A stretch of DNA of 64,000 nucleotides, from the NCBI GenBank assembly GCA_038049695.1, contig CP142451.1, positions 70,014,001-70,078,000 on the forward strand, given 5' to 3'. The notes beneath the pieces are model-generated. The model had not been told where the DNA came from. It was given only the letters and a program-made list of their open reading frames with translations, and did not search any database. The first letter of the stretch is position 1. Each line of letters begins with the position of its first letter. This document shows, in pieces, positions 13,828-51,282 of this stretch. The position numbers were made by a program, and so were the translations under genes. Origin of the DNA: Cinnamomum chago (lineage: Eukaryota; Streptophyta; Magnoliopsida; Laurales; Lauraceae).

Positions 13828-13835
13828 TATAAATA
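13828..13835 (+). promoter_or_regulatory. TATA box of the 5' LTR
   Basis: TATAAATA lies within GCCTATAAATAGGAGTCCCC. It is present at the same place in the 3' LTR (34924) and, in diverged form, in the family copies on the minus strand (42084-42090, 58141-58147). Transcription probably starts about 30 bases downstream, near the CAAGCATTTCAAAGGGG stretch. Confidence 0.8.
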
Positions 13836-14340
13836 GGAGTCCCCTCCAAGCATTTCAAAGGGGGACACACACAGAAGGATCCGGAAAAATCGCCAGAAAA
13901 TCATTCAAAAATCCTCGGAGAAATCTCTACAACCCTGCTCCTTCAAGAAAACTCTACTGCGACAAGTACTACAAGGTGATTGAAGCCCCTTGGGGGGCCA
14001 CCCCCCCTCAAAGGCCACCTATCCTTCTATCCAACATGGCTAGATGCAACTTTTCAGCCCGTCTACTCAGCTTTTTACCGGATATAGGACCTTATCTTGG
14101 TCCTTATCCTCTAAAAGTCTGAGGTTGGAGCCAAGCCAAGAAATCAAGCACTATGTTCTCATCTGAAGGACGATGGCGGAGCCCATACATGACTCGCGAC
14201 CGTCGATCTGAACGAGCCTTCCCACAATCGCATGAGAAGTTAGATTCCTTTTTCTTGCTTTTCTATTGTAGATTGTATTTTTTTTAAGAGACAAAAAAAT
14301 TCACAATTCTTGTCTTTTACTTTTGATAAGATTTGTAAAT

Positions 14341-14412
14341 CGCCTTTTACGGCAAAATCGCCTTCAACGGCACCAAATCGCCTTCTACGGCACAAAAACG
14401 CCTTTCACGGCA
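14341..14412 (+). repeat. Four short repeats CGCCTTnnACGGCA in the LTR leader
   Basis: Copies at 14341, 14359, 14378 and 14399 with spacing near 19 bases. Each can form a tiny GCC/GGC stem. The block is kept in the 3' LTR (about 35447-35518) and, on the minus strand, in the solo LTR (about 41530-41630) and the second element's LTR (about 57545-57650), although the surrounding sequence has drifted. Confidence 0.85.
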
Positions 14413-14663
14413 TTCAAACAAAACTGTCTCTTTTATTAAAATATGTATGCAATGGAAAACTAGAAAAAAGTTTCATTTCCCTTTTTACTTGTGAAGGTGG
14501 ATCTCCGGATCACTATTTCTAAATTCCAAGTATAAAAGAGAAATTGGCATACCCGTACAAAAAAAAACTGATGCCCGCTTTTCCTTTCTTTCCCTCCACC
14601 GTACCCCGTCAGCCCCGGGGCGGAGGCAGTTTTGGAAAAAGAGAAAAGCCGGGTCCATCAAGC

Positions 14664-14779: not shown

Positions 14780-15475
14780 ATAGGATTCTTGGAAATTTCT
14801 TCTTTTGAGTTTATTTCCAGTCTTTCTTGTTTCTAAAAAAAAAATCTGATTTACAAAAAATTTCAGATTTTCCTCTTTTGGGTTTAAGTTGAGAAACTTT
14901 GGTTTCCTCCTTTTCGGACTTCGAGATCGCAGAAATGTTGAACTCATTTTCGGAATGGAACACCATTTGCTCTCTTCTATGAATCCATAAAAAAAATCAA
15001 AAAAATAAAATCTGATTTACAAAAAATTTCAGATTTTCCTCTTTTGGGTTTAAGTTGAGAAACTTTGGTTTCCTCCTTTTCGGACTTCGAGATCGCAGAA
15101 ATGTTGAACTCATTTTCGGAATGGAACACCATTTGCTCTCTTCTATGAATCCATAAAATAAAAAAAAAAAAAACAAAATCTGATTTACAAATTTTTTTTC
15201 AGATTTTCCTCTTTTGGGTTTAAGTTGAGAAACTTTGGTTTCTTCCTTTTCGGACTTCGGGATCGCAGAAATGTTGAACTCATTTTCGCAATGGAACACC
15301 ATTTGCTCTCTTCTATGAATCCACAAAAAAAAAACTTCAGATTTCTCCCTTTTGGGTTAAGTTGAGAAACTTTGGTTTCTTCCTTTTCGGACTTCGAGAT
15401 CGCAGAAATGTTGAACTCATTTTCGGAATGGAACACCATTCGCTCTCTTCTATGAATCCATAAAAAAAATCTTTT
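14780..15475 (+). repeat. Tandem leader repeat, units of about 135-173 bp
   Basis: Four or more units, each containing TCAGATTTTCCTCTTTTGGG, GAGATCGCAGAAATGTTGAA and CATTTGCTCTCTTCTATGAA, separated by A-rich runs. The anchor TTCGGAATGG recurs at about 14952, 15114, 15287 and 15422. It lies in the untranslated leader between LTR and gag. The minus-strand frames rich in Ser/Lys/Arg across it arise because the unit is open on that strand. Confidence 0.9.
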
Positions 15476-15724
15476 TAAAAAAAAAAAAAACCACTAAGGT
15501 TGCACCAATTGCGTTCTTTGACCAAAGTGGATCTAAGAAAAGCCTTGTCCAGAGTGTGGAGACAGCTAGACTGTTCTAGGCAAGGGTCTTCCAAACGGGT
15601 TCATTAAGTAATCCTACCCTTACCTGGGGGCTGATCTATCCACTGAGGTTTCATAAGATCGAATTGGAAAACTATGTGAATTCTTCAAAAAAAAAAAATT
15701 CTAAAAAAAAAAAGAAAAAAAAAA

Positions 15725-16010
15725 ACTTCTGTCATTTTTGGATTCATATTTGAGAAATTCTGGTTCCTTCCTTTTCGGACTTCGAGATCGCAGAAATGTT
15801 GAACTCATTTTCGGATTGGAATACCATTTGCTCTCTTCTATAAAGTCCAATCTTGACACTTTAAAAAAAAAAACTTCCGTCACTTTTGGATTCACATTTG
15901 AGAAATCTTGGTTCCTTCCTTTTCGGACTTTCGAGCTCGCAGAAATGTTGAGCTCATTTTCGGATTGGAATACCATTTGCTCTCTCCTATGAATCCAATC
16001 TTGACCTTTC
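15725..16010 (+). repeat. Second, diverged block of the leader repeat
   Basis: Two further units with the same anchor phrases (GAGATCGCAGAAATGTTGAA, then CATTTGCTCTCTTCTAT; a second unit has TCGAGCTCGCAGAAATG). They are separated from the main array by about 250 bases of single-copy leader (15476-15724). Confidence 0.85.
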
Positions 16011-16411
16011 AAAAATCCCATCTCGTGTCCTTTCCAAGGATGCGATTTGCAACATTTGTGCCTAGCGGTGCTAGTACGCCCTTTCGGGTCTACTGTATTC
16101 GCAACCGACACATTTGTATCTCAACCTTATATCATTTTACCTTGAGTGAGCTTTGCTTCTCGGTAATTTGAATTAAGGTTCACAATTGCTCCTAGCAGTC
16201 ACTGGGACGCTCATTCTGAGCTGACCCTACCTGCGTTTAGAACAATTGTGCCCTCTATGGCTTTTCTGCCTTCCTCATGTTGCTTGGGCTGGGCCATGTC
16301 CCCTCGGGCGACTTGAAGAGGCGAAACCATAGTATTTTCCATTTATGATCACTGTATTCTTGTGATTACTAATGGATATGGTCTTGTTTCAGAAGTTTTC
16401 AAAAACTAACA
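16011..16411 (+). other. Remaining untranslated leader before gag
   Basis: Non-repetitive leader of about 400 bases. It contains no long open frame and leads to the first gag ATG in the context AACAATGGCA at 16412. Confidence 0.6.
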
Positions 16412-19400
16412 ATGGCAGCTTCATTAACCATCACCTTTGATGAGAACAAGTACCAGCTCATGCTCCAAGACAAACAAACCAACACTACACCAAAAATCGG
16501 AAATTGGAACGGAAAAGCGTTCCTAATCCTTCCGTTCCTAATCCGTTAAAGTGTTCCAATTTCCGTTCCAATTTGGTACCAACCGTTCCTAATCCAAATT
16601 GGAACGGAAATTGGAACACTTTAACGGATTAGGAACGGAAGGATTAGGAACGCTTTTCCGTTCCAATTTCCGATTTTTGGTGTAGTGCAAGCGCACTTAC
16701 AAGCGCCCTGCCAGCTGCCGAAGCGTCATTTCCCTCGGCAATTCAGAAGACACCGGGTCAAACTCTACTCCCCGGACCATTGTCTTCGGGTCATTGGGAC
16801 CATTCCCACTACCCGCAGAAGAAACCGCACCTGCCAAGAAGCAGAGAACCGCCCCTCAACGTATCACTACAGTGATACCAAGGGCGATCATCAAGAAGCC
16901 TAAGGCCCGTAGCGCTCCTGCAAAGCCTCAACCAGCAAGAAACCAGGTCTGCTCGAAGACTTGGTCTCCAAGGCCTTCACCCAAACAGCGAAGGTCACAA
17001 ACATCAGCAAAGCCAGCATACCTGGCCCCTCTCAAGGAGAACCGGTTCTACCCTCTTGCTTACATGAAAGAGGAGAAGCCTACCCTCCGCCAAACAAAAC
17101 CAACTCAGCACGAGCCGGCTTGCTCATACAAGCCCAAAATCAAATCGTGCATCGTAAGGCCTCCGCAAGAACCTGCCAAGGCCTGCACACCTGCGAATCG
17201 ACCCTTCCTCTCAACAGGAGCCGAACTCGCAAAATTCAAAGCTTCACTGCGACAGGCAAAGGACCGCGTCCAGATCCTGTCCCTGCCCGTCTTCAAAGAA
17301 GACAAGCTTGGCTGCTGCGCACCAGGGACTACGTCCTTCATTGCCAGAGCACAGCCAGAGCTAACCGAAGCTCAAATCGCTCGTCGTATGCGTCGCCGCA
17401 CGGCATATCGACAAAAGAGACTAGAGAAACAAAGAACCCAGGATTCTGTACTTCAGGTCTCCCAAAAATGGGTCAAAAAAGAAAGACCCGACCAAGTTGT
17501 TGCTGTTAATATGGTTGGCAAAACCAGAAAACGCCAGAAGTCAGCAACTAAAATCCATGTCAGACGACCGGTGACTCGCAGCGTCTCCCGGACACGAAGA
17601 CATAAAGAAAACTCTCCCGCTCCTTCAAGCCAAGGACATCAGAGTGACCACTCTTCGAGCTCTTCATCTAAAAGAATGAGCTCCAGCTCAGTCACCAAGA
17701 CTGTATCCTCTTTCGACTCTCGAAGAATGAACGTCTTGGTCACAAATGCTGAGCAACCTCCGCCGCATGATGACGTAACCGGACGCATCCAGCAGCTGGA
17801 GCAAGGGCAGCAGAGGATAGAGACTCTAATAGAGAACCTAATTCTCAATCTTCAGCGTCCACAAAACAATGAAGCTCCTCCGAGCCATCAAGGCGACGAG
17901 GAAAATGCGGAAAACAGTGAGTCACGTGCCCTTACCAAAAAGGACGTTGACGATATCCTCGCCAAAGCAAAAGAAGAGGATACACTAAAGGAGCATGGGA
18001 TCAAGCCACCATATCCCTTGTGGATGGACTCGGTCCCGTTCCCTACAAAATTCAAGCAACCTACTCTCCAAACATATACGGGGAAAGGTTCAGCCAGACA
18101 ACACGTCATCCATTTCAAGATCCTGACGGGAGCTATTGCGGATCAAGATGCCCTCAAAATCCGCCTCTTTGCAAGTACCCTAAAAGGTACGGCCTTTGAT
18201 TGGTACTCCACTCTGCCTGAGGACTCCATTCAAAATTGGGCCATGTTGGAGACACGCTTCCTAACCCACTTCAAAGGTGAGGATCATCCTGTTACTATGG
18301 CTCAGCTCTGCAGCCTAAAACAGGGAGAGAATGAGTCAACATATGACTTCATTCACAAGTGGAAGGCAATGGCATACAAATGCTCCGATGTACTGCCACA
18401 AGCGTCACTGGTTGACATCTGCCGAAACAACATGAGAGCAAGAATCCGCTCCATGATCATCGGCAACAAATCAAAGAACCTGGGAGAACTCCTGGAAGCA
18501 GCCATGGAAGCTGAAACGGTGATCAAAGACCTAAACAGTCAGAAGTCATCAAAGAAAGAGCCGACTGCCATTGCAACCTCAAAACCAAAGAAAAAGGAGG
18601 TTCTCACTGTGCAAACCAAGTCAGCTCCTCAGCCGCCAAAGAAAGCTGAAAACCAAGCTGCAGGTAAAAAGCCTGAACTCTCTGATGCCTTCAAAGAACG
18701 AGTAGAAAAGAAATACCCATTCGATGAAGATGTTGAAGAAATCTTTGGGGCACTCCTAGCAAACGGCAAACTTACATTGCCTGACCCCAAAAGACCAGGA
18801 GATGTTGGCAAAACCAACGATCCTCGGTACTGTCCATACCATCAGATGGTCTCGCATCCTCTCAATCAATGCTTTGTTGTGAGAGAGAAGATAAATGAGA
18901 TGTGGAAAAACGGAGTCATTACTTTCGACAAGAACTATGGGTCTGCCTCCGTCAACATGGTGTCGTATGGACAAAAACAAAAATCACCAAAAGAGAAGAT
19001 CACTACTTCCTTCAAAGTGATAAAGATGACCCAGACGTCCCAAGAGTTGGTTCCATATCTAACATCAGACAGACAGCCCATATGGGTACACCCCGATATC
19101 CTAGAAGATGAAGATTGGGAGGTCGTCAAAACAAAGCCTACCGCTCAACAGCGAAGGCAAGCCAGGAGACAACTCCGCAGGCTCAAACAGCAGGAGAAAA
19201 CTCCGAAAAAGCAAGAAGTTGCTGAAAAGGCAGAAACCTCCTCTACCGCTTCACTGGGGGCAATAGAAGAGTCCTCTCCTAAGGCTTCAAAGGCGGCAAG
19301 AAAATTCACTCTTGGTGATTTCATGCCACCACACCTCAAAGATGAAACTACGCAGGGGGCATCATACTCTTGCAACTCAGTGGTCGGATTCTCCATGGAT

Positions 19401-19895
19401 GGATATGAGTCCAGTGACATCGATGAGTGGGAGGAATCCCTCGAAACAGGAGAATATCTCTCCGACGAGGAATGGATCCCTGAATCTCATCTTATGCCAG
19501 TAATCTGGTATAACCCATTACAGCCGCAAGGATCCTGGTCTGATGATGAAGAAGACCAAGAGGCTGTCCAAGAAAATACTCTAGTGGAACCCAACCATGT
19601 TGAACCACAAGGAGCAGACGAAGAAGAAGATTTGGTTCCCGGGCCTAATCTCGATGAATACGCAAGGATCTTGCAGCACCTTGCTATAGAGCAAGAACAA
19701 GGTCGCATCAATCAGCTTCGTCACAACCCAGCACCGGAAGTTCCTGAAAATTTACAGGAATCTCCCCCGGTAACCCCGGAAAACGAAGAAAGCAGTTGGA
19801 TCGATGATCCTCTTACATCTGAGGACGAATCTGATTCCCAACAGTTCATCTTGGAGGCATCTTCCGTCAAAGTTACTTGCAATGCAATAACTTAG
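16412..19895 (+). pseudogene. gag of the Tat element, interrupted by a MITE
   Basis: Capsid/nucleocapsid polyprotein that would package the element RNA in cytoplasmic particles. I place the start at ATG 16412 (AACAATGGCA): its frame equals that of the long open stretch after 16690 once the 205-bp MITE and its 3-bp duplication are discounted (208 bases, one more than a multiple of three). As it stands the frame breaks at the MITE. The N-terminal third is basic and disordered. A Retrotrans_gag-type capsid domain lies at about 18090-18500 (LFASTLKGTAFDWYSTLPED). A degenerate zinc-knuckle-like motif CPYHQMVSHPLNQC lies near 18831. The acidic C-terminal part ends at an in-frame TAG (19893-19895), after which the same frame stays open. 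Confidence 0.85.
16483..16687. mobile_element. CACTA-type MITE (205 bp, near-perfect hairpin) inserted in gag
   Basis: Begins CACTACACCAAAAATCGG and ends with the reverse complement CCGATTTTTGGTGTAGTG. The two arms of about 92 bases are inverted copies around a short centre with GGTACC. It is flanked by a perfect 3-bp duplication CAA (16480-16482 and 16688-16690), the size typical of CACTA transposition. It carries no gene. The near-identity of the arms indicates a recent insertion. Confidence 0.95.
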
Positions 19896-20477
19896 GATGA
19901 TAATTCCTCACCTTCTCATGCTTCGTCTCCTGAAACAGTGACATCGGAACTCAAACCTCTTCCGACTGATCACCTTGAAGAAATTCCAGCCGGTGAAATC
20001 TTCTTCAGAGAAAATCCGGTTAATTGGTCCCAAATGCCCGATCTCATCGATGATGTCTGGACCGACAAAATCTCCGATAAAGAAGGAAAGTTGCTGGATG
20101 CTGTTCAGGACTTGTTCCCGGAAAATGCTACATGCAACACAATTACTGAAGATGGCAATGCTGACACAGAGACATCTTCAGCAAATGAGAAGGAACAACC
20201 CCTCGATCTCGAGGGTGATCTTCTAAACAAAGACCCTTCTCCAGAAGCTCTTGAAGTTGGTAGAGGTACCCGTTCTGGCCGGGATTACCACAAAAACTAC
20301 AACCAACCTTCTGCTTCTTATGTAAATCCTTCGGGAAAACAAGCTGTAAACTCCCCTAGTGGCAAGAATAATGAAAATGCAGGCCCCAAGGAGGCTTTCA
20401 AGTACGACTTGATTCAGCACTTCAAACACATACCTGCACGTCTGCACATCCTAGACTTGTTACGAATGTCACCATAG
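19896..20477 (+). pseudogene. gag-protease linker segment, same frame as gag
   Basis: Open continuation of the gag frame after the TAG at 19893, ending at a second in-frame TAG (20475-20477). It is acidic and low-complexity with a RSGRDYHKNYNQP stretch. The C-terminal DLIQHFKHIPARLHILDLL leads into the protease region and resembles the segment seen before the protease in Tat-type polyproteins. Whether these stops are mutations or sites of readthrough cannot be told from this copy alone. Confidence 0.65.
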
Positions 20478-21227
20478 ACTCGTGATGGTCTCATTTCAGA
20501 ACTACAAATGCTGGATGCGGATGTCGACAAACATGCCCCACAAGTCCTACAAATTGAAATGGACCATAGGGTCAAAAAGTCAAAGACTCCCTCAAAAGGA
20601 GAAAAGAAGAAAACTGAGGGATCCTGCATCGAATGCCTCTCGGTTCAAAAAGCAGCAAGTGCAACCATCGCCTTCACCAAGGAAGACCTCCTGTTAGGCG
20701 AGACAAAGCACAACCGACCCCTGTACTTCACCGGGTACATCAAAGAGGTACCACTACGCAGAATCCAGATCGATCCAGGTTCTGCACTCAACCTCATCTC
20801 CACTTCGGCACTCGAAGAACTGGGCATTCCGCCTAGCAAGCTGAGCCACACGTCTGTGTCCATCTTTGGATATGATGGCAGCGCTCAAAGGCCGATCGGC
20901 AAAATCAGGTTCAAGTTGCAAATCGGTGATCTTATCTCCGAGGTCACTGTCTATGCAATAAAGACCCCTTCATGCTACAACATCCTTCTCGGACACCCCT
21001 GGATACACGAGAATGGTGTTGTCCCTTCGACTTTACATCAGTGCATCAAGTTCGTTGGCAATGACGGCTTGATACATCGAGTGTTTGCAGACAAAAAGCC
21101 CTTCAAAGGCAAAGAAGTCTATTTCGCAGATGCTCAGATGTACAAAGATGAAAAAGAAGAAAGGGAGGAAGAAACAGCACCCTTTGCCGAAAATCTCCAG
21201 AAAGACAAAGGCAAGGCTCCTCAGTAA
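20478..21227 (+). pseudogene. Aspartic protease (retropepsin) of the Tat element
   Basis: Would cleave the polyprotein. The frame continues from the segment before; the first ATG after the stop is 20508. The active-site loop is IDPGSALNLIS (Asp codon at 20772), the DxGS form, and it is followed by the hydrophobic flap region and a typical YNILLGHPWIHENGVVPSTL block. A Lys/Glu-rich tail ends at an in-frame TAA (21225-21227). It is short for a free-standing protein, consistent with being a polyprotein segment. Confidence 0.85.
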
Positions 21228-24200
21228 TCACCGGAAGAAAACAAACCCTCTATCAAAACTAAAGAGAATAATCAATCTCCCTTCATGGTCTCCCTCAAGT
21301 CTTCAAAGCCTCTGGTGATCACCACCAAAGCAAAGAAGACAAAACAAAGGGCTGGGGGCAAGTTTGCTGTCTCCTTCGTGTCTATCTTGCAAGACATGAA
21401 TTCGGACTCAGAGCCAGAAGATGATACATTGTCAAGCCGAGCCGATGATCAACAAGTTCAGCCCGCTCTCACTCCGTTGGAGACAACCGTTGACATAGAA
21501 CATCCGGCATCTGCTTCCTTCATTGTTCCAGCAACATCAGTAGAAGAAAAGCCAATCTTCTTCCATAAATCGGGAGTTTCTTCATCAAATTCTTCGCTTG
21601 AACCTTTCCAAAATGAAGGTATGCCTCAACTATCCCTGTATAGTCCAATGGCGCAAGCTATCATGAAGAAAATGGGCTACGACGCTCAGAACCCAATTGG
21701 TTTGGGAGATGGCCGTGGTATTATCACGCCATTGGAACCAACCCTGACCAAAAGTCAACTGGAAAGTTGGAAACCCCACCGCCACATAGAAAAGTCTTCA
21801 TATGGGCTGGGGTATGATCCTGACGCCTCCTTGAGACAGTTGACACAAAGGCCGCAAAGTCATCCTGTCGACCAAGCCTCAACATCTCATATTAATGAAG
21901 ACATTGATCTCCCTGGATATTTCTTTGAAGAGTTGACCATCAAGGATCCAGGAAGTTTATCCAATTGGTATGATTCCTCTGATGATGAAGAAGAATTGTT
22001 CGATAATACAGATACACGGTTCTCTGACCCAGAAGAACCACCGTCTCCAAAGGAAGTGCCCTACTTCGACCTAGTTTCAACAGGTGATTGGGACCACCTC
22101 ATAGCAAATCTTGAGAAAAGTACCAATCAAGAAGACCCATGGACAAAAGCAGAGCCGTGGTCTGTAGATACCTTTGGAACTCCAGAAGGCTTTGTTGGGT
22201 TGGAAGCCTCCGAAAATATTGTGGAGGAACCACCTTCAAACCTTCCAACTGAAGATTCTGTTCAAAAGATAGACTTGGGAACACCTGATAACCCACGTCC
22301 TATATTCACAAGCAAGAATATAAAGGATGATGAGTTACCCGAGTATATCGCGTTTCTTCATGAATTCGTTGATTGTTTTGCATGGTCTTACGCTGAGATG
22401 CCTGGCTTAGACCCCAAAATAGCAGTCCACAAACTCAATCTTCAAAAAAATATCAAGCCTGTCAAACAAGGCCAAAGAAGGTTCCGTCCTGATGTGATGG
22501 ACAAAATTGAACAAGAAGTTCAAAAACTCAAAAGCGTTGGCTTCATCCGTGAGGAACAACATCCTGAATGGTTGGCCAACATCGTCCCCGTGACAAAGAA
22601 AAACGGGCAAATCAGGGTCTGCATTGACTACAGAGACCTAAACAATGCATGCCCAAAAGATGAATTCCCGCTCCCTATACCGGAGGTGATGATCGACAAC
22701 ACCTGTGGGTTCGAGAGAATGACATTCATGGATGGCTTCTCTGGCTACAATCAGATAAAGATGCATCCTGAAGATGAAAAACACACAGCATTTCGGACCC
22801 CGTTCGGCGTGTATTGCTACACTGTCATGCCATTCGGTCTGAAGAATGCCGGCGCTACATATCAGAGGGCTATGATGAAGATCTTCCAAGATATGCAGCA
22901 CAAGACGGTCGAATGTTATGTCGACGACCTCGCCGTCAAAAGCAAAAGAAAAGAAGACCATCTCAAAGATCTTCGAGAAGTCTCCTTCCGACTTCGCAAA
23001 CACAAACTGCGAATGAATCCCCTCAAATGCTTCTTCGGTGTTTCATCGGGTAAGTTTCTCGGATTCATAGTACGGAAAGCTGGCATAGAGCTTGACCCCA
23101 TCAAAGTCAAGGCTATCCTAGAAATGCCATCTCCAAGAACCCTAAGACAATTAAAAGGGCTCCAAGGAAGATTGGCATACATTCGACGGTTCATCTCCAA
23201 CCTATCAGGGAAGTGTCGTCCATTCTCTCGGTTAATGAAAAAAGGTGTCGATTTTGTCTGGGATGCTGAATGTGAAGCCGCGTTCCAGGACATTAAGTCA
23301 TACCTGACTAAACCTCCAGTGTTGGCTGCCCCCACAACTAGAAAACCATTCCTCTTGTACACAAGAGCCCTTGACTGTTCTTTAGGCGCTCTACTCGCAC
23401 AAAAGAATGACGAGGGAAAAGAAGCTGCTCTATATTACCTTAGCCGCATGTTGATAGGTGCAGAGCATCGCTACTCTCCAGTCGAAAAAGAATGCTTGGC
23501 AGTGATGTTCGCCATACAAAAGCTACGTCACTATCTGCTTTTCAACACAGTTTATCTGGTCTCAAGGATCAACCTCCTAAAGGTCCTTGTCACAAAAGCA
23601 GGTTCTCTCAATGCCCGACTAGCAAAATGGTCCATCCTCCTGTCACAATTTGACATTAGGTATGTACCACAAAAAGCAATCAAAGGCCAAGCTCTAGCAG
23701 ACTTCCTCGCGGAGCATCCATTGCCTAAAGATTCTCCACTCAGGGATGACCTCCCAGACGAACCGGTCTACAGTGTGGAGACTTCCTTATCAAATGCTTC
23801 CTGGCACATGTACTTCGATGGCGCAACCAGGACAAATGAAGAGGGAAATCAAATATCGGGAATTGGCATTCTCTTTGTTAGTCCCGACAAATACATGATT
23901 CCACACGCATTCTCGCTACTGGAACCATGTTCAAACAATGCAGCTGAGTACCAAGCCCTCATCGTAGGATTGGAGCTCGCCCTTGAATCCTGCATTACTA
24001 CACTGGAAGCTTTTGGAGACTCTCAACTGATCGTCAACCAGATGAATCAGAAATTTGAAGTCAGGAAGCCTGATCTGTTGCCTTACTATAACAAGGCACA
24101 ATCGCTTGGACAAAAGTTCGACATCTGTCACATCACCCACATCCTCAGAGGTGAAAACATTCGTGCAGATGCCCTGGCTGGACTTGCTGCATCTATGGCA

Positions 24201-24971
24201 ATCCAAGAAAAGGAAAACATGCAAATTACAGTGTGTCAAAAAAGGATTCTCCCTCCTCTCAACACACATCAAGCAGTTGCTGAATGCCACCAAGTGGTTG
24301 GAAGTCGGATCTCCGTCCTTAAACCTCTGATCGGCGACTGGAGGGATCCGTTCATTGATTACATAATGTTCGGAATCCTACCTGAAGATCCAAAAGAACG
24401 GGTAAGCATCCAAAGGCGAGCCCCAAACTTTCATTTGGATATTCCTTCAAAAATGCTGTATAGAAAATCCTATAATGGAATACTTCTACGCTGCTTGTCA
24501 CAACAAGAGGCTGAGGAAACACTCAAAGAAGTACATGCTGGTCTTTGTGGAGCCCATCAGGCTGGGCCTAAGCTCTACGATCAGATAAAAAGGTTAGGTT
24601 ATTATTGGCCTACCATGGTGGCTGATGCAATGCAATTTGCTAAGCGCTACCAACAATGCCAAGTTCATGGAGATTATGTCCACATGCCTCCGGAATGGCT
24701 GCATCCTACAGCAATCTCATGGCCTTTTGAAGCCTGGGGTATGGACATCATAGGTCCTATCTCCCCTCCATCGAGCAAAGGTCATCGCTTCATCTTCGCC
24801 GCTACGGATTATTTCTCCAAGTGGTCAGAAGCATTTGCGCTTAGTGAAATGAAGACCTCATCAGTCCTTCAGTTCTTGCGCACCAACATCATTTGTCGCT
24901 TCGGCATACCTAAAAGATTCGTCCATGATAACGGACCACAGTTCCGCGATCACCGATTCTACAAGTTCTGA
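21228..24971 (+). pseudogene. Reverse transcriptase, RNase H, second RNase H and integrase N-terminal part
   Basis: Same frame as gag and protease; first ATG at 21285. Residues below count from there. A G-patch-like segment (KKMGYDAQNPIGLGDGRGI) lies near 125. Reverse transcriptase runs from about 400, with VCIDYRDLNNACPKD, PFGLKNAGATYQRAM and catalytic YVDD (codons from 22917). RNase H (FLLYTRALDCSLGALLAQ) starts near 686. A second, archaeal-like RNase H (MYFDGATRTNEEG, then EFGDSQ-like and NIRADALA) lies at about 840-970; this duplication defines the Tat lineage. Integrase starts near 1080 with the His pair (HAGLCGAHQAG), but the first zinc Cys is Tyr (RYQQCQ). Core Asp residues are in GMDIIGP and VHDNGPQF. 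An in-frame TGA (24969-24971) cuts the protein before the catalytic Glu. Confidence 0.95.
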
Positions 24972-25586
24972 GACAAATACAAAATCCAAAGTTGTCCTTC
25001 AACTCCGTACAATCCGGCGGCGAATGGGCTAGCAGAGGCCTTCAACAAGACGCTCTGCAAAATCCTCAAGAAAATGGTCTCTAGTCACAAAAGAGATTGG
25101 GGCGACAAACTGCCTGAAGCTTTGTGGGCCTATCGAACCAAAGTTCGAGGACCAACCCATAGCACACCATTCTCCTTGGTCTATGGATGCGAAGCTGTTG
25201 TCCCTTTGGAAGTTCAAATTCCTTCCTTAAGGGTATCGCTACAAAATGACATGACGCAAGAAAGTAATGTCAAATTGAGACTCCAAGAGCTGGATAACCT
25301 CGATGAGAGACGGCTCGAAGCTCTACAAAGTATTGAACTCTACCAAGCACGCATGGCAGGATCTTTTGACAAAAAGGTCAGGCAACGCGCCTACAAAAAG
25401 GGAGACTTGGTTCTTACAGTAAAAAGACCAATGGTTTTTGCCAACAAATCCAAAGGCAAATTTGAACCAAAATGGGAGGGACCTTTCGTCATCGACAAAG
25501 TCTTCTCCAACGGCGCATACGCTCTTCTAAATATGGAAGGTGACAGATGTATGCTGCCCATCAATGGAAAGTTCTTGAAGCGGTAA
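24972..25586 (+). pseudogene. Integrase C-terminal part
   Basis: Continuation of the same frame after the TGA. NPAANGLAEAFNKTL holds the third catalytic acidic residue of the DDE triad. A GPFVIDKVFSNGAYAL stretch typical of the integrase C-terminal domain (GPY/F) follows, and the frame ends at TAA (25584-25586). No chromodomain follows, as expected for Tat. Together with the preceding pieces it would form one polyprotein frame. Confidence 0.9.
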
Positions 25587-26375: not shown

Positions 26376-26384
26376 TTTTGAAAA

Positions 26385-26965
26385 CCAAAAACCTGGCTTT
26401 CACGCCAAAAAACCCGGCTTCCATGCCAAAAATTCGGCTTTCACGCCAAAAAACCAAAAACCTGGCTTTCACGCCAAAAACTCGGCTTTTATGCCAAAAA
26501 TCAAAATTCGGCTTCCATGCCAACAAAACAAAATTCGGTTTTCAAAAAAAAATCCGGCTTTCATGCCACCTCAAAATCTGGCTTTCATGCCAAAAACAAA
26601 AAATCTGGCTTCCATGCCAAAAATAAATTTCGGCTTTCATGCCAAAAACAAAATCTGGTTCTTACACCAAAAACAAAACCGGCTCTCATGCCGCAAACCA
26701 AATCTTGGCTCTCATGCCACAAAATCTTTGGCTCCCATGCCATCTCAAACTCGGTTTTCATGCCATTTAAAAAAAAAAACCGGCTTTTACGCCAACCAAA
26801 ACAAAAACCCGGCTTTCATGCCAACAAAACAAACTGGTTTTCAAAACAAACCGGCTATAGATGCCATCCAAATCCGGCTATAGATGCCACCCGAAATTTG
26901 GCTTTCATGCCGTAAACAAAATCTGGCTCCCATGCCAAAACATGTCTCAAAAACTGGCTCTCATG
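26385..26965 (+). repeat. Short tandem array CGGCTTTCATGCC(A)n
   Basis: About two dozen copies of CTGGCTTTCATGCC / CCGGCTTCCATGCC separated by A/C-rich spacers of variable length. Each unit has GGC...GCC ends that can pair. The array lies just downstream of the pol stop and just downstream of the antisense gene's stop, between two convergent transcription units. Confidence 0.9.
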
Positions 26966-27163
26966 CCTAAAACAACCCTTTTGACAAAAGATTTTCACAA
27001 AATGACAACCTTTTGATCAAAATTTTCAAACAAACATTCTCATCCAACCTTTGCTTATTTTCATCAAAAGAATTTAAGTAAAAGGTACACAAAGTACCAA
27101 AAATGTTTTACATAGAGGTACAAAAAAAAAAAAAAAAAAAAGAGTTTGTTATAAATCAAGAGC

Positions 27164-28104
27164 TCAGTCTAGCATGGTCTTCAACCAAAGATCCAGCTCC
27201 TCAAGCAGACTCTTGGCCTTAGCTTCTAAAGCTTCCAGACCGCGCTTCTTCAAGATCTTGCCATAAAACATGGCAGAACGCCGCGACCCATCTTCAGCAC
27301 GAGGAAGCTCTTCCCAGAGAATTTGCCACTGCTCATACTCCTGAGTCTTCCTCCGGAGATGGCTGTCAGTTTCCTCAACCTGGCGAATCAAAGCTCCCTC
27401 TTTGGCACGAGCTTCAACGACGGCAGTCCACTTGGCAGCAGCCTGTTCTTCCAACAGTTCAAGGCGTTGTCTAGTCTCTTTGACCTCCCTATCAAGACGG
27501 TGCAGGTCCTGAGTCAGCTCAAGGATCGCTAACTCAGTAACGTTCCTCTCCCGAACATATTGCTTCCGAGTCCGCGCGATCTCGTTCATTTTAGATTTAA
27601 CCTCGCCGCATGGCTTGAAGAACATCTCTCTGAAGAAGTCATCATTTGGGAAATACTTGGTCTCATTCCACTTGTTACCCAGCGCGATGACATCATCAAC
27701 AAAGGTCTTAGCACTTGTAATGTCCAGGCCAACCTCTACACTATCAGCAAGGATGTCTTGCACGTGCTTGACCATGCCAAAGCTAGCCTCCAAGTGGCCA
27801 GAAGAAAGAGTCTCAACCCATGAGCTCAGCACACTCTTCAACACCTTCTTTGCATATCGAAGGGATGGTCCGGATGGAGATTCACCACGCTCTGTTGGCT
27901 GACTGCCCATGTCAGGCTGTGGTGGAGAAGAAATCAAAAGGCTCTTTCCAATCGGAGCCACTGAAGAAGCAATATCACCACAAAGTCCTGCCTCTGCCGT
28001 GACGGGACTGGTAGAAGAAGCCCCTACTTCTGGATCGGCTGTTGGCATCTCCTGCTCTGGCCCTGAGGAAGACGAAGGAACTTCTCCTGTTGCTTCACAA
28101 CCTG
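27164..28104 (-). CDS. Antisense gene exon 5 (coiled-coil C-terminal half)
   Basis: Starts after acceptor TTTCTGTCAG and runs open to TGA/TAA-type stop at 27164. Ser/Pro/Glu-rich at first, then an alpha-helical Glu/Arg/Leu-rich region (LTQDLHRLDREVKETRQRLE) predicted as coiled coil, ending LLEELDLWLKTMLD. It resembles the helical tails of plant transposon-encoded mobile-domain proteins in general character only. Confidence 0.8.
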
Positions 28105-31100
28105 CTGACAGAAACACAAGAAAAGGTATGAATATGATCTTGTCAAAAAAAAATCAATTTCAAGATTATCACTATGAAATACCTTCTTCTATGATGGGTG
28201 GAGTACTTTCTATCTCCATTTGCTCATCCGAGGCATCGTCGAAAGCCATATCCATAGAGGGCTCGAAGTCGGAACCCTCTGGCAAGTCAGCTGACAAGAA
28301 AACAAAAATAGGTGTCAGCAAAAAAAAAAAAAAAAAAAAATCATCCTCATACCAGGTGGAGATTCTGGGTCCTCCCCAGAGTCCCTCAACTCTTCTTCAG
28401 ATGCCGCAACTGGATCCATCACCGCCTCATCAGCAGGAACCTCGGGCATCACCAAGTTTTCATCTTCTGCAAAGAAAGAAAACAGCAAATAAAAAAAAAT
28501 CCCTCATAAAAGGAAAGAAGCGGAAATAGAGAAGAAGGAGAATCATACCAACATCGGCGGTCTCTTCTTCACGACTCCTCTTCTCTAGAGGCTCATCAGC
28601 ATCTCCTGATACCTCCTCAACGATGGTAGAAGGGACTTCCAGATCAAGAGAGTCTTCGTGGCGTCTCTCAGTGCGACGCTGTCCTCTCCTCCTCTTTTTT
28701 CTACGAGCCGGTTTACTTGAAGTACCTGCCTCACTGTCAAAGTCAGGACTTCCACTTGGCTCCTCACTGGACGACCCGCTCCTGCCAGTGGACCCCATGG
28801 AAGCCTTCATTCGCTCTGCTTGCATCCAAGTGTCGATCTCGGCTTCCTCCTCCTTGAGCTGTCTCAAGACCTCAGCAGGTATCTCTTGTGCAGCTCCGGA
28901 TCTAATGACATCCTGTTCCGCGAGAAAGCCTATCCTATGCTTCTCTCCAGAAAGGAAGAACAAAACTTCCCCTCGACGGACGCCATCTGATCTACCAAGA
29001 CCCTTCCCAGGAGATTGCTTGACATTCAGCTCCTTCTTGGAAAGCCCTCGGTACACAGCAAAGCTCTCCACGAACCACTTCGTGAAGCCAGCAGTCCGAA
29101 AAATGGGCAACTCAGGATAGGAAATCATGGCAGTAGTGTCCTCCGCACTATAGAAAGCCCATGCATTTCTCCCGTCCTGCAAAACTCCAAAACGCTTCAC
29201 CATGCTCGAAGGCGCTCCAACAACGCCTTGAGAGAAGCCTAACTGCAACGCAAAACGCGAAGGGACATACGGCTGGATGTCAACAAAAAGATGTCTGCGG
29301 TACACCATCGTGCCAACACGTATGTTTAAAAGCCACCTCTTCTCTGCGTTGGTCAAAGAATAGTGCCTTCCCGATCCTGCCCTGGTGGAATCACGGGAGA
29401 CACCAAAATCAAAAGCCTTCTTCCGCAAATCTGGAGAAAGCTTTACTGAAGATTGCCCAATCTCGACATCCCTGAATCGTCGGATTCTCAAGCGGGCAGA
29501 CAAAAGTGAATCGAAAACGGCTTTTCCCCTAGCCAACCGAATCATAAAGGGGTCATCATCCTGAGCAGCGCCCAAACGGTGGAAGCCGGGACAGTGGTAC
29601 ACATACCACGAATAAAAAATATGGGCTGAAAATACCCTATTCATAGGAAGCCCAAGCCGAACCAGAAAAGCAGCAGCCTGCAGTTCGGTGCACAAATAGG
29701 AGTAAAGAGCAGGCACCAAAGCCAACTGCTCTCCGCACGCTATCTGACAAGCCGGAAATATACAATGCGGCCTGATGTGTGCTCCGTCTCCTCCAGCAAA
29801 AACAGCCTCACCCAGCCAATAAGTGAGGTATGCAGCAACATCTCTCCGCAGCGCAATGTCGGAGCAAACGGCGTCTGTACTTGTGAGAAAGTTCTTCAAA
29901 TTCTCTCGCATGGCAGAAATCTTTTTCCCCGGATTCTTAGTCTTGGCTTCCTGGGTCATACTCTCAGAAGATTCTTCGTCGCCAAAAAAGTTTGGAGACA
30001 AAGAACTGAAACTCCTCCAACTGCTACACCGGACTTTCAAGCCCTCCTTCTCCCTCAAAAAATCGTAGAAGGCGACGAGCTGAAAGTACAAAAGCCTGAA
30101 CTCCTCAGACTGCTCCTCAAGGACGCTGTCGATTGGCATAAATTCCTCATAGAGTTTGCCGAGGATGGGCAACCCGGTAATGGCACTCAGCTCCTTCAAA
30201 GAAAAACCAATCTCACCATTCGTAACAATGAAGGTGTTGGTTTGTGGAAGGAAGGACTCCAGCATGGCCATAAAAGCCTCATCGGAGAAAACTACGGTTT
30301 GCCTAAAAGCGCGAACCGCATCAAAAATCTCGGCCTCCTTCAGAATGGCACCGCCGATCTGCAGGATGTGATCAGTCCACGACTCCCAGCCTGAGTCAAC
30401 ACTGAAACGGCCACGAAGTCGAAAAGGCTTCACCCAATTGCTGCCATCGCCCCTGAAAATGCCAAGGCCCACCGGTCTCAAATCAACCGATGGGATCAGA
30501 TCCTTGGTAGCCGCTGGCCGGCATCAACATGTCCAGACGGACAGGCGACTTCTCTGCATAACCAGAAGGACCGCCAACAAAAACCCCGGTCTTGACCACA
30601 TTGGTCCTCTTCACCCAGCTTGGAGGATCTTCTCTCTTAGAGCATGTGGGAGAAAGACTCATGATCGAAATAGTACGATCAAAAGGCGACCGGGTAGAAA
30701 TGGTTCTCTCCTCACCATCGGCTGTGTAAGAGAACTGAAAGCATCTCCTTTGATATGACGAGTCATCAGGAGCTGCATCACCAAAGAAAAAGGTAGGCTT
30801 GGGCACAATGCTCTGATCGTCCATGACCCAAGGACGATTGCTTGCCATAATCTTGTAAAACTCCTCATCCTTGAGAGCAATCAGTCGCTGTCTCATCTCA
30901 TCTCGGTTGAGCGAGTCACACTCTTCCAAGTTTCTCTCCACATACTGGACCTTCTCCCAGGCCTGCTGTACAGCCGCATTGGAAGATCTGGCAGATCGAC
31001 GAGGTGCATCGGTAACGGGCTTCTTACCCTTGTTCGTTCTGGAGGAACTACCTGCAAAGATTGAAAAAAAAAATCAATCAACAGAATGACAGAATTTTGC

Positions 31101-31940
31101 TAAAAAAAAAATCCTAGCGAAATTTTGGCATGACTCCGGGGCAATTCCGAAGAAAAGGGAATCACCCCGAAAAGAAAGGAAGCCTGAATATGAGCTCAAC
31201 ATCGCTGAGAGCTCATGATCAATGAAGGATTCTCAAAGAAGACTCGAACTCAAACATTGCTGTGAGATCAAGACAGTCTTCTCAAATTTCCGCAAGAATC
31301 GGAAAAGAGCTCAACATTGCTGCGAGCTTCAAATCCCAAAACTTGCAAAAAGCTCCTCGAGACCCCCGCAAGACTAAAGAAAGAGCTCAACATTGCTGCG
31401 AGCTTCAAATCTCAAGACTTGCAAAAGATTTCCAGGTGTGCATCATCATCATGCTCCCAATCCAATTTACAAAAATCATGCATAAAAGAAAATCATCATG
31501 CACTAGATGCTAGGGAAACCTTGACAAAATTTGACCAATTCCAACCCAATTTGGTCAAAATCAAACTTTGTCTAAGTCAAAATTCATGTTGGCTTAGCAT
31601 AGAAATTCTAGCCTTCTATCTTGATCCAAAAAAAAAAAAAAAATGCATAAACATCTTGAATTGCATGAAACCTCATTATCATGATGATGCAAAAAGGGGA
31701 GCAAGGAAAGTTTTTTTATATAAAAAAAAAAGAGAAGAAAAAAAAAAATTTTCTGGGCTGGCCCACAAGCCGAAACCCACAGGCCGTGGCCCATGGGCCA
31801 CATGGCCGTACGGCCCAAGCTGTAGGGACATGTCCGTACAGCAGCAAAAAAAAAAGAGAGAAAAAAAAAAAAAAAAGAAAGAAAAAAAAAAAAAAAAGGG
31901 TGTGTAAAAAAAAAAAGGGAAAAAAAAAAAGAACACGTGC

Positions 31941-31971
<31 letters not shown>

Positions 31972-32035
31972 ATGATGAAACTTTCTTTACATGGAATTTC
32001 TTGTAAAAAGAAATAAAAAACTTACTTGAAGCCAT
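27164..32035 (-). CDS. Antisense five-exon gene encoding a plant-mobile-domain-like protein
   Basis: Exons on the minus strand: 32035-32026, 31051-28549, 28466-28353, 28290-28183, 28104-27164, about 1220 codons. All introns start GT and end AG, and all four are phase 1, so the frame is kept across every junction. The long second exon holds a domain like the plant mobile domain (PMD; known from MAIN-type proteins and transposons), with FLPQTNTFIVTNGEIGFSL and ELSAITGLPILG, and a basic KKRRRGQRRTERR stretch that could be a nuclear signal. The last exon is Glu/Lys/Arg-rich and looks coiled-coil. One apparent frameshift lies between about 30483 and 30520. Function in the element is unknown; extra antisense genes are a known Tat-lineage trait. 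Confidence 0.8.
28183..28290 (-). CDS. Antisense gene exon 4
   Basis: 108 bases bounded by CTTGTCAG and GAAGAAG|GTATTTC. It encodes an acidic segment (EPSMDMAFDDASDEQMEIE). Phase 1 on both sides. Confidence 0.75.
28353..28466 (-). CDS. Antisense gene exon 3
   Basis: 114 bases bounded by CTTTGCAG and CACCTG|GTATGAGG. It encodes an acidic linker (DEAVMDPVAASEEELRDSGE). Phase 1 on both sides. Confidence 0.75.
28549..31051 (-). CDS. Antisense gene exon 2 (mobile-domain-like core)
   Basis: Starts after the acceptor TTTGCAG with G/GT AGT TCC TCC and ends at ...GATGTTG|GTATGATT. About 2.5 kb is open apart from one shift of reading frame near 30483-30520, where the upstream frame meets TGA (30483-30485) while the downstream frame is already open. 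The N-terminal third contains VQQAWEKVQYVERNLEECDS and a conserved-looking PKPTFFFGDAAPDD. The middle third is the mobile-domain-like region. The end is acidic and basic low-complexity. Confidence 0.8.
31220..31440 (+). repeat. Degenerate tandem repeat inside antisense intron 1
   Basis: Three to four copies of GAGCTCAACATTGCTGCGAG followed by CTTCAAATC and AAGACTTGCAAAA. A related block (GAGCTCACAACAATGTTGAG...) occurs on the other strand in the second element at about 63240-63440. Confidence 0.75.
31700..31985 (+). repeat. Purine/A-rich tract (T-rich in antisense intron 1)
   Basis: Long runs of A broken by G. Read on the antisense gene's strand this is a T-rich intron. The equivalent stretch in the second element (62700-62945) is also almost pure T with a little C. 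Lysine-rich frames here are composition artefacts. Confidence 0.8.
32026..32035 (-). CDS. Antisense gene exon 1 (ATGGCTTCAA)
   Basis: Ten bases, ATG GCT TCA A, followed by donor GTAAGT. The split Ser codon is completed by GT from exon 2. The same ten bases and donor occur at 62648-62657 in the second element, which supports both start and splice site. Upstream sequence to about 32160 is a likely leader with CTCTTGAAGAAGG-type repeats. Confidence 0.75.
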
Positions 32036-32224
32036 GGATGGAGAAGAAAGGAGAACTTAAAGACTCTTGAAGAAGGAGGATTCTTGATCTTAGAGCAACT
32101 CTTGAAGACTTTTGCAAAAAGAAAGCAATAGGAGCAAGAGATCCCACCTCAATTGCTTTTATAGAAGAGAGCAAAACAAAAGAGGAAACAAGAGAAAAGC
32201 AAGGAGGTAAGGGCTAAAAATTAG

Positions 32225-33180: not shown

Positions 33181-35756
33181 TGTTGACACCAAAAATGTCA
33201 CTTTGCCTCTTCACACCAAAAGCTACACGGAGCCGCATCCTACCAAAAATAGGCAGGCGCTACTTCAAGCATCAGATCTTGTCAGAATCAAACAAAAACT
33301 GCAAGGTCACTCAAAATAACCAAAAGAGAGGTACACATGAAGTTTCGGGCCATTTCGATATCATTTGGCCTAACTTCACTTCTCCAACAGCTAAGCAGCA
33401 GCTCCCGGCAACGGAGCACCCCGGGGCCATGGCACCCAATTCGGAGCTTGTGGATCATCTCAAAATGACTCCATTAAGCTCCCCATCAAATTTCAGGTCA
33501 ATCGGACATCGTTTGACCGAAAGTCAAAGCTCGGCATTTCCCTCGCGGTGAAATAAAGGCGAGCATTTGCATGACCCCAAACGGATTCAAAACTCAAGCA
33601 AAAGCCTATGGTTGGTCTTAACTACTGATGAGGGAGTCACACGTCGAATTTCAGGTCAATCGGACATCGTTTGACCGAAAGTCAAAGCTCGGCATTTCCC
33701 TCGCGGTGAAATCAAAGGCAAGCATTTGCATGACTCCAAACGGCTTCAAAACTCAAACGAAAGCCTATGGTTGGTCTTAACTACTGATGAGGGAGTCACA
33801 CGTCGAATTTCAGGTCAATCGGACATCGTTTGACCGAAAGTCAAAGCTCGGCATTTCCCTCGCGGTGAAATCAAAGGCAAGCATTTGCATGACCCCAAAT
33901 GGCTTCAAAACTCAAACAAAAGCCCATGGTTGGTCTTATTTAATGCTCAAGAAGCTTCACCTCAAATTTCAGGTCATTCCGACATCGTTTGATACTGTTT
34001 CAGCTACTGGCGGAAAATCAACAGTTCTGCGTTCGGCTTTTCCCGGAAAATCAGAAACTTTGCAAACCAATTTGCAAGGATTCTCATCAGGTTTTTCAGA
34101 GGGAAATCAAACCAAATAATGTGGAGAAATGTGAGAGAAAACAAGCAAAAAAAACGGAAGCGAAAAACGACGAAAAACGGCAAAAAACGGGCCCCGGGAA
34201 GGAATTTTTCCCCCAGGGTCGCAGACCCCCGCGACCCTGGGAGGTCCGGGGCGCCGATTTCGCCCCGGGACCCCCGTTTCGTCCGTTTTCGCGAGACGAG
34301 TTGTTCTGTCCCTGTGATTTTTCCAGATTCAGGCTTTTGAAGCTCCAAATTCACTGATATTCATCAAGATCACAGGACTCCTTTCCAGAACTTCAAAAAC
34401 TTCGTTGATTGCCAACCGAACAACCAAAACAAAGCACTTTTTGCCCGCCCGATCGTGAAATCAACTGGACAGATGCTGCCGGCCCGCTGGTATCAACCAA
34501 TGCCTGAAACTACATGATCATCTGATGTTGATTTACATAAGGATCCATCAACGATCATCGTAAAAGGAATTCCAAAAGACGCAACATGGCCCGCGACTCT
34601 TCAGCTACCGAGGCGGCCACTTAATGCTATCAATTGGCCCGTTTATGGCAAGTTAATGCGGTCATTAACCCATTATCTTGGACGGCCCAATCAGAAGCCT
34701 CTGTTCAAGAGTTACAAGTCCAAGCAATCATGGCATTCAAGCCATGAAACTCCTAACATAATGGAGATTAAAGGCGATTAAATGCCCATGACTCTCCTCC
34801 GGCCAATGAAATCCAAGGGTCAGGAGTTACAAAACAAAAAGCAATTAAACTCGTAACTCCTCCCTTAATGAGCTTTATTACCATAAAGGCTCATAAATCA
34901 CTCCTAAAGGCTACCTAAAGGCCTATAAATAGGAGTCCCCTCCAAGCATTTCAAATGGGGACACACACAGAAGGATCCGGAAAAATCGCCAGAAAATCAT
35001 TCAAAAATCCTCGGAGAAATCTCTACAACCCTGCTCCTTCAAGAAAACTCTGTTGCGACAAGTACTACAAGGTGATTGAAGCCCCTTGGGGGGCCACCCC
35101 CCCTCAAAGGCCACCTATCCTTCTATCCAACATGGCTAGATGCGGCTTTTCAGCCCGTCTACTCAGCTTTTTACCGGATATAGGACCTTATCTTGGTCCT
35201 TATCCTCTAAAAATCTGAGGTTGGAGCCAAGCCAAGAAATCAAGCACTATGTTCTCATCTGAAGGACGATGCCGGAGCCCATACATGACTCGCGACCGTC
35301 GATCTGAACGAGCCCTCCCACAATCGCATGAGAAGTTAGATTCCTTTTTCTTGCTTGTCTATTGTAGATTGTATTTTTTTTAAGAGACAAAAAAATTCAC
35401 AATTCTTGTCTTTTACTTTTGATAAGATTTGTAAATCACCTTTTACGGCAAAATCGCCTTCAACGGCACCAAATCGCCTTCTACGGCACAAAAACGCCTT
35501 TCACGGCATTCAAACAAAACTGTCTCTTTTATTAAAATATGTATGCAATGGAAAACTAGAAAAAAGTTTCATTTCCCTTTTTACTTGTGAAGGTGGATCT
35601 CCGGATCACTATTTCTAAATTCCAAGTATAAAAGAGAAATTGGCATACCCGTACAAAAAAAAACTGATGCCCGCTTTTCCTTTCTTTCCCTCCACCGTAC
35701 CCCGTCAGCCCCGGGGCGGAGGCAGTTTTGGAAAAAGAGAAAAGCCGGGTCCATCA
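33181..35756 (+). repeat. 3' LTR of the Tat element
   Basis: Starts TGTTGACACC, ends GGGTCCATCA. It is nearly the same as the 5' LTR, with scattered point differences and a 38-bp deletion in the GC-rich block near 34222. The TATA box is at 34924-34931 and four CGCCTTnnACGGCA repeats lie near 35447-35518. Confidence 0.95.
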
Positions 35757-49570: not shown

Positions 49571-51282
49571 TTTATTATCTCTTTTCCATTAATGGAAAGT
49601 CCATCTCACATAAACTCTTTCACCACTTGATCATAGATGATTTTCTATATTTACTAGAGAGATGGAGGAGCAATAGAAACTTCCAGTTTTTCTTTCTATA
49701 TTTCCTAGATAGACAAGGGGGAGTCTTACAGTGTTTTGAACCCCACCCCACCCCCCACCCCCCCTTCTTTTCCATGTGTGAGTTAGTCCTCCTTGCATGT
49801 GTGAGTTCCTATTACCTCACATGTGCAAGTTGTCTGCCCCTTGCATATGCGAGTTCCTATTACCTCGCATGCGCAAGTCTCTCACGGACCAAGCCCCTTA
49901 GTTGGGATACTAAAAGAAAAGGTAAATTAAAATTAGTATTGACTGTGGTAGAGAGAATACACATATTGAAAAGGCAAAACTCTTGGTCCTTTGACTTTGC
50001 TGTTATATTTCTTTTTAAAGAAAGATACAAATGTCAAAAATCAAATGGCAAAATTAAGAGTTCAGTTCATTAACCAAAATTACCTACTATAGTTAAATCT
50101 GTGTGTTTTTTAGTGAAAATAAATATCTCAGATGAAATATTTTGGAGTCAGTTAACCGGAATTTGTAAATGTGTATTGATCAATATTGTGTTTAATTTCA
50201 ACAAATGAAATTTGTATTCTGTTTATCTTCTAATGAAAGAAAAATATATAATAAAATCAGTGGGCAAAGCTCGGAGTCTTTTGTTCATATCATAAAAAAT
50301 AAAAAAATTAAAACAAAAAAAACAAAACAATCACCAAAGCTAACAGGCAAGACTTCGAATCCTTTATTAAATTAGTAAATAGATATTAATATTATGCTTA
50401 TCTTAAAAAAATAATTAATATTATATTTATCTTCAACAAAAGAATCAAATTCCAAAAGACAAAAGGCAAAACTTTGAGTCATTTAACTGAAATTAATAAA
50501 TATGCATAATATTGTGTTTATCATCAACAAAACTAAAAAAAGATAATGTCTTTACCTTCTGACAGAAGAGACAAATACCAAAAGTCAGTTGGCAATTGGA
50601 ATTGTCTTTTAACCAAAATCAGTAAATATAGTTTAATATTATGCTTATCTTCGGCAAAAGAAATAAATATCCAAACTTGATATCCTTTGAATAATAATAT
50701 GTCTATCTACAGTCAAGGAAATCAAAACTGCCTTTATCTTTCAAAACAAGAGTCCTTGAATATTATACATTAATGTTTTATTTATCTTCATTGATAGAAA
50801 TAATATTATGTTTATCTTATAATTTGAATGAAACGAATATAGGAAGTCAATAAGCAAAACTTGTAGCACTTTAACTAGAGATATTATTGGATTATCTTCA
50901 AAGAAATAAACATCAAAATTAATATACAGACGTGGAGTCCTTTAACTAGAATTATTAAATATATATTAAAATTCTTTTTATCTTCAATAAAAGAAATTGA
51001 TATTCTGTTTATCTTCAATAAAAGGACAAGTATCAAAAGTCAAAAGTCTTTAAGTTCTTTTACTAGAATTAATAAGTTTACATTAGTGTTTTGTTTATTT
51101 TTAACAAAATAAATTGATATTATGTTTATTTTCTAACGAAAGAGGCAAATACCAAATGTCAAGAGGCAAGGCTGAAGAATCCTTTCACCATAGTTAATTC
51201 ATTAATTATATATTCTTCTACAATGAAACAAATTAATATTTTTTTCAATAAAAGGTGGAAAATTCTAAAAAGTCAAAATTAA
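49571..51282. other. Degenerate AT-rich region with irregular repeat of a GGAGTCCTTTAAC phrase
   Basis: A phrase like GGCAAAACTTGGAGTCCTTTAACTAGAATTAATAAATAT recurs about ten times at irregular spacing (about 80-290 bases) between 49980 and 51290. A 447-base open frame at 49627-50073 crosses a C-rich run and two CACATGTGCAAG-type repeats and shows no family resemblance. No gene supported. Confidence 0.4.

Follow-up and report, generated by a model that had tools for sequence, protein, structure and literature searches.

Can a retrotransposon carry a spliced gene of its own through reverse transcription? This question is raised by a locus of Cinnamomum chago (GenBank assembly GCA_038049695.1, contig CP142451.1, positions 70,014,001 to 70,078,000 of the forward strand), a stretch of 64,000 nucleotides to which we refer as the window. 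A Tat-type long terminal repeat (LTR) retrotransposon spans positions 12047 to about 35756 of this 64-kb window. On its minus strand, at 27164-32035, between the end of the integrase frame (25586) and the start of the 3′ LTR (33181), lies an intron-bearing gene that had been predicted from the sequence alone. An antisense frame in this interval is what characterizes Grande-type elements. We consider it probable that this Tat-clade element carries a real antisense accessory gene, separately transcribed and spliced, whose product would be a nuclear regulator of chromatin or transcription of the element itself and might counter silencing.

The five minus-strand exons of the original prediction all bore scrutiny in the sequence, with a GT donor and an AG acceptor at every border and every junction in phase 1, given a single frame change in exon 2. 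Exon 1 (32026-32035, 10 nt, ATGGCTTCAA) is followed by an intron of 974 nt (31052-32025) and by the large exon 2 (28549-31051, 2503 nt), which encodes the core domain of the protein and a basic stretch. Beyond it lie intron 2 (28467-28548, 82 nt, GTATGATT...TTTGCAG), exon 3 (28353-28466, 114 nt), intron 3 (28291-28352, 62 nt), exon 4 (28183-28290, 108 nt), intron 4 (28105-28182, 78 nt as given) and exon 5, which runs for 941 nt to the stop codon (27164-28104). Intron 4 terminates in two adjacent AGs, and exon 5 would start at 28101 if the AG 3 nt downstream were used. The exons 2 to 5 have a G+C content of 50–54%, the introns of 26–36%.

The frame of about 1220 codons with one local shift, as predicted, is open from ATG to stop but for the frame change in exon 2 between about 30523 and about 30483: a stop near 30483 closes the upstream frame, and from 30523 onward the downstream frame continues without interruption until its stop at 27164. 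An open run of 687 amino acids exceeds anything found in 40 random 64-kb sequences, whose longest runs average 181 and reach at most 263. The gene was also thought to have its own leader and TATA-like region. A TATA box (TTTGCTCTCTTCTATAAAA, 32157-32175, minus strand) is indeed present, with TATAAAA beginning 128 nt before the ATG, and the leader region between them (32036-32156) is free of ATG; both are kept in a second copy, described below.

The encoded protein belongs to a recognizable family. The predicted core of exon 2, a plant mobile domain (PMD), was borne out by the Pfam check that had been proposed for it: PF10536 matched with 61.4 bits against a curated cut-off of 34.9 (E=1.1e-16), the best stretch being residues 191-284 of the frame window:28460-30523:- (29672-29953). 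The element thus has an extra open reading frame (ORF) with a plant mobile domain, as 57% of Ogre elements do (PMC6317226). Downstream of the PMD are a basic run, RRKKRRR (28685-28705), which we take to resemble a nuclear localization signal (NLS), and an acidic stretch with a net charge of -37 over 120 residues. The tail had been described as coiled-coil, in agreement with a heptad periodicity that only 7 of 2000 shuffles reach and with a predicted coiled-coil-like helix of 104 residues (27296-27607; residues 183-286 of the last-exon model mff2989668bef), for which the predicted local distance difference test (pLDDT) is up to 98 by block. A fold search with this C-terminal model gave three weak matches, the best at E=3.1 and none meaningful. 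Intact relatives would encode about 1220 residues comprising the PMD, the NLS-like basic run, an acidic middle and a coiled-coil tail.

The 5′ part of the same antisense gene is found again within the window, in a second, older and decayed element of opposite orientation that runs off the window's end (61740-64000, plus strand). This copy retains the TATA box, the start codon, the first donor and the first acceptor AG. Identity amounts to 10/10 in exon 1, 8/8 at the donor, 99 of 112 aligned columns in the leader (over 32036-32149) and 31/36 in the TATA region (32150-32185), while the start of exon 2 is identical at 360 of 423 positions as compared to 662 of 887 in the body of intron 1. Exon 2 differences fall at the first, second and third codon positions in 15, 10 and 38 cases, out of 141 each (chi-square p=2.4e-5), the pattern of a coding exon under constraint. 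Read by eye in the frame of the first copy, exon 2 of the second copy contains two stops and a 5-nt gap.

Relatives of the protein outside the window were sought in three protein searches, two of which scored the roughly 8000 candidates sharing most words. The matches were proteins of avocado (Persea americana), two ENA proteins and one further protein from a record labelled Yersinia pestis; with avocado the source of all other named relatives, the window would by this evidence likely be of lauraceous origin. When the antisense protein was compared with 46 relatives, junction 2/3 was ungapped over all 24 residues in 11 of the 22 alignments reaching it. At junction 3/4 itself, 15 of 21 were free of a gap and differed by one residue farther along, and junction 4/5 was matched in 9 of 20; the remaining alignments skip, truncate or shift. 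All nine at junction 4/5 have exon 5 starting 3 nt downstream, so that the AG predicted to precede 28104 exists but the avocado models use 28101 instead. Exon 3 has its borders and the avocado comparison behind it. Exon 4 is missing from the avocado models P0003, P0007, P0017 and probably P0028. The original prediction had named a lack of conserved exon borders in other family members, together with an absence of spliced antisense reads, as what would tell against it; borders are kept in the second copy and in part of the avocado models. Because the matching relatives are annotated gene models, they speak for signals and frame kept in other copies and not for RNA seen.

One relative, P0001, is 97% identical over 87% of the query and reads on unbroken across the site of the frame change, so copies intact at this place in exon 2 exist. 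P0001 and P0020 were considered as possible cDNAs and dropped, since both read through the end of intron 1 and are therefore silent on splicing. Of three avocado relatives scanned with PF10536, P0007 and P0008 scored above the cut-off and P0004 below it (20.8 bits). Avocado annotations give many copies of the antisense gene as ordinary hypothetical proteins (P0003-P0046 except P0020), and none of the six inspected, P0003-P0008, starts with exon 1. The hypothetical protein P0002, from the record labelled Yersinia pestis, is 80% identical and appears to enter intron 2; it is evidently plant contamination in that assembly. Searches for further loci in viral and genome contig collections gave 53 and 34 pattern matches, respectively, none of which was confirmed by tblastn.

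Beyond what had been predicted, we found two motifs that the antisense gene has in common with the sense leader of the element. This leader, between the primer binding site (PBS) and gag, is rich in tandem repeats (14835-16015, plus strand) and contains six copies each of motif 1 (TCGCAGMAATGTTGARCTC) and motif 2 (TTTGCTCTCTTCTATRAA). Motif 1 forms an array in intron 1 of the antisense gene (31192-31404, minus strand), with four copies of which one has an extra base. At up to 3 mismatches it occurs 11 times in the window, where 0.04 matches are expected: the sense leader accounts for six of these, intron 1 for three and its counterpart in the second copy for two. Two variants that carry one additional base lie in these two introns, and a string search found one further variant in the second copy. 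Motif 2, at up to 2 mismatches, has 8 matches against 0.03 expected; six of them belong to the sense leader, and each copy of the antisense gene has one at its TATA box (32158-32175 and, with one mismatch, 62506-62523). With respect to transcription, the sense leader and the antisense gene carry both motifs in the same orientation.

A comparison of the leader with the 3′ internal region of the element gave a best inverted match of 36.2 bits and a best direct match of 28.2; none of 150 random leaders reached 36.2 bits (maximum 32.2). The leader scored 22.3 bits against gag-pol and 24.3 against a downstream control stretch, on either strand, and no match was found between it and the LTR. Within the element, the inverted matches are one of 22 nt with a single mismatch and one of 18 nt without any. 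The shared motifs may be common control elements, traces of a leader duplication or sequences that make the ends of the genomic RNA complementary.

The element that houses the gene is flanked by two LTRs. Its 5′ LTR (12047-14660, TGTTGA...CCATCA, with a blastn match extending to 14661) and its 3′ LTR (33181-35756, with a match to 35757 and the polypurine-like CGAGGGGGCATT just before it) are 97.0% identical by blastn with gaps counted, and differ in 40 of 2577 gap-free columns (Kimura two-parameter distance, K2P, 0.016). A PBS candidate starting with TGG is present. The LTR flanks, AAAAC and ACAAC, are one base apart; an exact target duplication was not found there. Sense gag-pol (16414-25586, plus strand) has Pfam matches to gag, protease, reverse transcriptase (RT), RNase H, a second RNase H and integrase. 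Within window:21228-24971:+ these run from RT (456-615) through RNase H (705-808) and PF13456 (870-985) to the integrase zinc and core domains (1092-1246). The Tat label of the original prediction fits this order, since an additional RNase H, placed between the first one and integrase, is a hallmark of Ogre and Retand elements (PMC6317226). From gag to integrase there is a single frame (16686-25586) with four in-frame stops, at 19893, 20475, 21225 and 24969, of which that at 21225 falls between protease and RT, the site of Ogre's sense intron.

Much of this is known in kind. Ty3/Gypsy elements of the PMD-A1 and PMD-A2 clades likewise encode a plant mobile domain protein outside gag-pol (PMC5418596), and PMD-containing extra ORFs (eORFs) occur in 57% of Ogre elements (PMC6317226); the accessible portions of these sources describe no exon-intron structure, promoter or orientation for the PMD frames. 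Antisense frames, which the original prediction mentioned for the Tat lineage, are represented by gene23 of maize Grande, which, according to a review, also lies antisense between pol and the 3′ LTR and has its own promoter and a nuclear protein; unlike the present gene, it comes with no mention of a PMD or introns in the available part of that review (PMC7264820). Grande serves as a Retand-lineage query in PMC11963269. Retand antisense ORFs carry the domain TRP28 (PF04195) and not a PMD, and they were collected with ORF Finder as conserved ORFs of at least 600 bp, a procedure by which spliced genes would be fragmented. A spliceosomal intron in a Tat-clade element is known from Ogre, where it is partly spliced and lies between protease and RT (PMC6317226). 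Being on the sense strand, Ogre's intron must escape splicing in the genomic RNA; the present introns are on the other strand. Plant LTR elements are otherwise generally without introns, the exceptions named in a 2025 review being Ogre and EVADE (PMC12786077).

Against this background the gene is less unexpected than predicted, since an own promoter and Gypsy PMD clades are on record (PMC7264820, PMC5418596). A report of a spliced, multi-intron antisense PMD gene was not met among the matches listed from the open-licence literature, outside of which papers from 2011 and 2013 may hold exon structure. No report of motifs common to a sense leader and an antisense gene was met either, in reading that included no search aimed at them. 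The conserved multi-intron antisense structure and the two shared motifs are what we did not meet in the literature.

How, then, could such a gene work? In the reading that we favor, an Ogre/Retand-type element would express an accessory gene located opposite gag-pol, between integrase and the 3′ LTR. The gene would have its own TATA-type promoter, followed by a short leader and a first coding exon of 10 nt; its first intron is long and the other three are short. That such a promoter and an intron-bearing coding structure are kept across copies argues for a separately expressed accessory protein. Reverse transcription starts from the sense RNA, so splicing on the antisense strand would spare the introns. 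The genomic RNA that is copied would be the other strand, on which these introns read CT...AC and hence could persist, an explanation that fits the sequence. Within the nucleus, the PMD protein would then work on chromatin or transcription of the element that encodes it, perhaps countering silencing, and the motifs that the sense leader repeats share with the TATA box and intron 1 of the antisense gene would be candidate target or co-regulation sites.

VANDAL elements, which offer a comparison for this role, are DNA transposons, and we know of no PMD in their VANC proteins. A nuclear self-regulator is favored because transposon silencing requires the PMD proteins MAIN and MAIL1 of the host (PMC5418596, PMC7156037), because PMD proteins encoded by transposable elements (TEs) have been suggested to be counter-silencers (PMC8616336), and because the TE-encoded VANC anti-silencers bind short motifs in noncoding tandem repeats of their own elements (PMC10398659), which is the role proposed here. 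For VANC this motif binding is demonstrated; in the present element the shared motif arrays are candidate sites. MAIN and MAIL1 share the plant mobile domain and roles in silencing and gene regulation, but they are host genes of the PMD-C clade and act in TE silencing. By extension of the VANC analogy, a single regulatory circuit might be imagined, in which the PMD protein, produced from its separate spliced transcript, recognizes motif arrays at or downstream of both promoters and keeps both open against host silencing, as a retrotransposon counterpart of VANC and as the ancestral activity from or against which host MAIN/MAIL evolved; we regard this fuller scheme as decidedly speculative and unlikely in its entirety.

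Several observations weigh against the favored reading. In the second copy, sequence ahead of the TATA box is no less conserved (593/688) than exon 2 (360/423), and only 8 of the first acceptor's 11 nt are identical; the signals therefore stand out clearly only in comparison with intron 1. At a given junction, between a quarter and more than half of the avocado alignments lack a clean match, and the avocado models are annotation that may consist of splice-site predictions. The present copy makes no full-length protein, because of the frame change in exon 2, and its gag-pol carries four in-frame stops plus an insertion. The model of the exon 2 product is unreliable (mean pLDDT 37), and no solved relative was found by sequence. 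The motifs were chosen after the match had been seen, and their six leader copies are one tandem array and not independent cases. Finally, the known host PMD proteins promote silencing, the opposite of the anti-silencing proposed.

Nothing was found in favor of chance open frames with chance splice motifs on the antisense strand; the PF10536 match, the conservation in the second copy and in the avocado models and the comparison of frame length with random sequences speak strongly against a chance ORF and leave this explanation next to no probability. A functionless passenger, captured once from a host PMD gene or another transposon, is very improbable. The PMD is found in host genes and MULE elements as well, but the same gene is present in the diverged second element of the window and in many avocado protein models, its 5′ coding part is under constraint, and Gypsy-only PMD-A clades are known (PMC5418596). 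Evidence of selection on the protein, in the form of third-codon-position bias, PMD homology and a frame open in P0001 where the present copy is broken, also makes it improbable that the antisense transcript is the agent and the protein secondary. Such a transcript would be complementary to about 5 kb of the genomic RNA toward its 3′ end and could pair with it, giving rise to double-stranded RNA and small interfering RNA (siRNA) or blocking reverse transcription; functions of this kind have been discussed (PMC7264820), and PMD genes are sources of phased siRNAs (phasiRNAs) in tea (PMC10673657).

Somewhat unlikely, in our view, is a real spliced gene whose protein aids retrotransposition directly, in nuclear entry of the pre-integration complex, packaging or choice of integration site. 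The NLS-like basic run, the coiled coil and the location beside gag-pol would suit such a function, and entry of the pre-integration complex is discussed for proteins of antisense ORFs (aORFs) in a review (PMC7264820). The known PMD proteins, however, act in silencing and gene regulation, and a promoter and strand of its own suggest that the gene is expressed independently of gag-pol, although neither point is decisive. A further alternative concerns the motifs only and is compatible with the nuclear regulator that we favor: these may not be control elements but complementary ends of the genomic RNA that serve circularization or strand transfer, or relics of an inverted leader duplication. In Ty1 and Ty3, RNA circularization or strand transfer is aided by complementary ends. 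Both matches described above are inverted repeats in the element, so that a single RNA has complementary ends. We hold this to be possible but lean against it, as motif 2 is the antisense TATA box and is kept there in the second copy, which suggests a promoter role at least on the antisense side.

If the antisense gene is transcribed, a retroelement would have a way to preserve a multi-intron gene during reverse transcription, namely by encoding it on the opposite strand. With its introns retained, it could also use alternative splicing (some avocado models are without exon 4) and control by the first intron. Spliced antisense genes may be undercounted, because surveys of plain ORFs break them up. 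Host PMD proteins silence transposons by an unknown route, and a Gypsy-encoded PMD protein with candidate target repeats would allow the action of the domain to be probed.

Further features of the element and of the window were observed along the way. Tandem repeats of 159 nt, in about three copies, lie within both LTRs (12352-12858 and 33489-33992). Translation of gag likely starts with the ATG at 16414. Shortly downstream is an insertion of about 205 nt (16483-16687), a near-perfect palindrome with CACTA/TAGTG-like ends and CAA on either side. We take this palindrome to resemble a foldback miniature inverted-repeat transposable element (MITE). Between pol and the 3′ end of the antisense gene is a degenerate tandem array of GGCATGNNAGCC-like units (26381-26975). 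Outside the element, a stretch of 260 nt (51260-51519) matches its own reverse complement at 80%. At 52322-54280, direct repeats of 388 nt, 100% identical, surround a 400-amino-acid frame that matches SH3_Tf2-1 strongly and, at scores below cut-off, a chromodomain and an integrase weakly; this is perhaps a very young, internally shortened chromovirus-like element.

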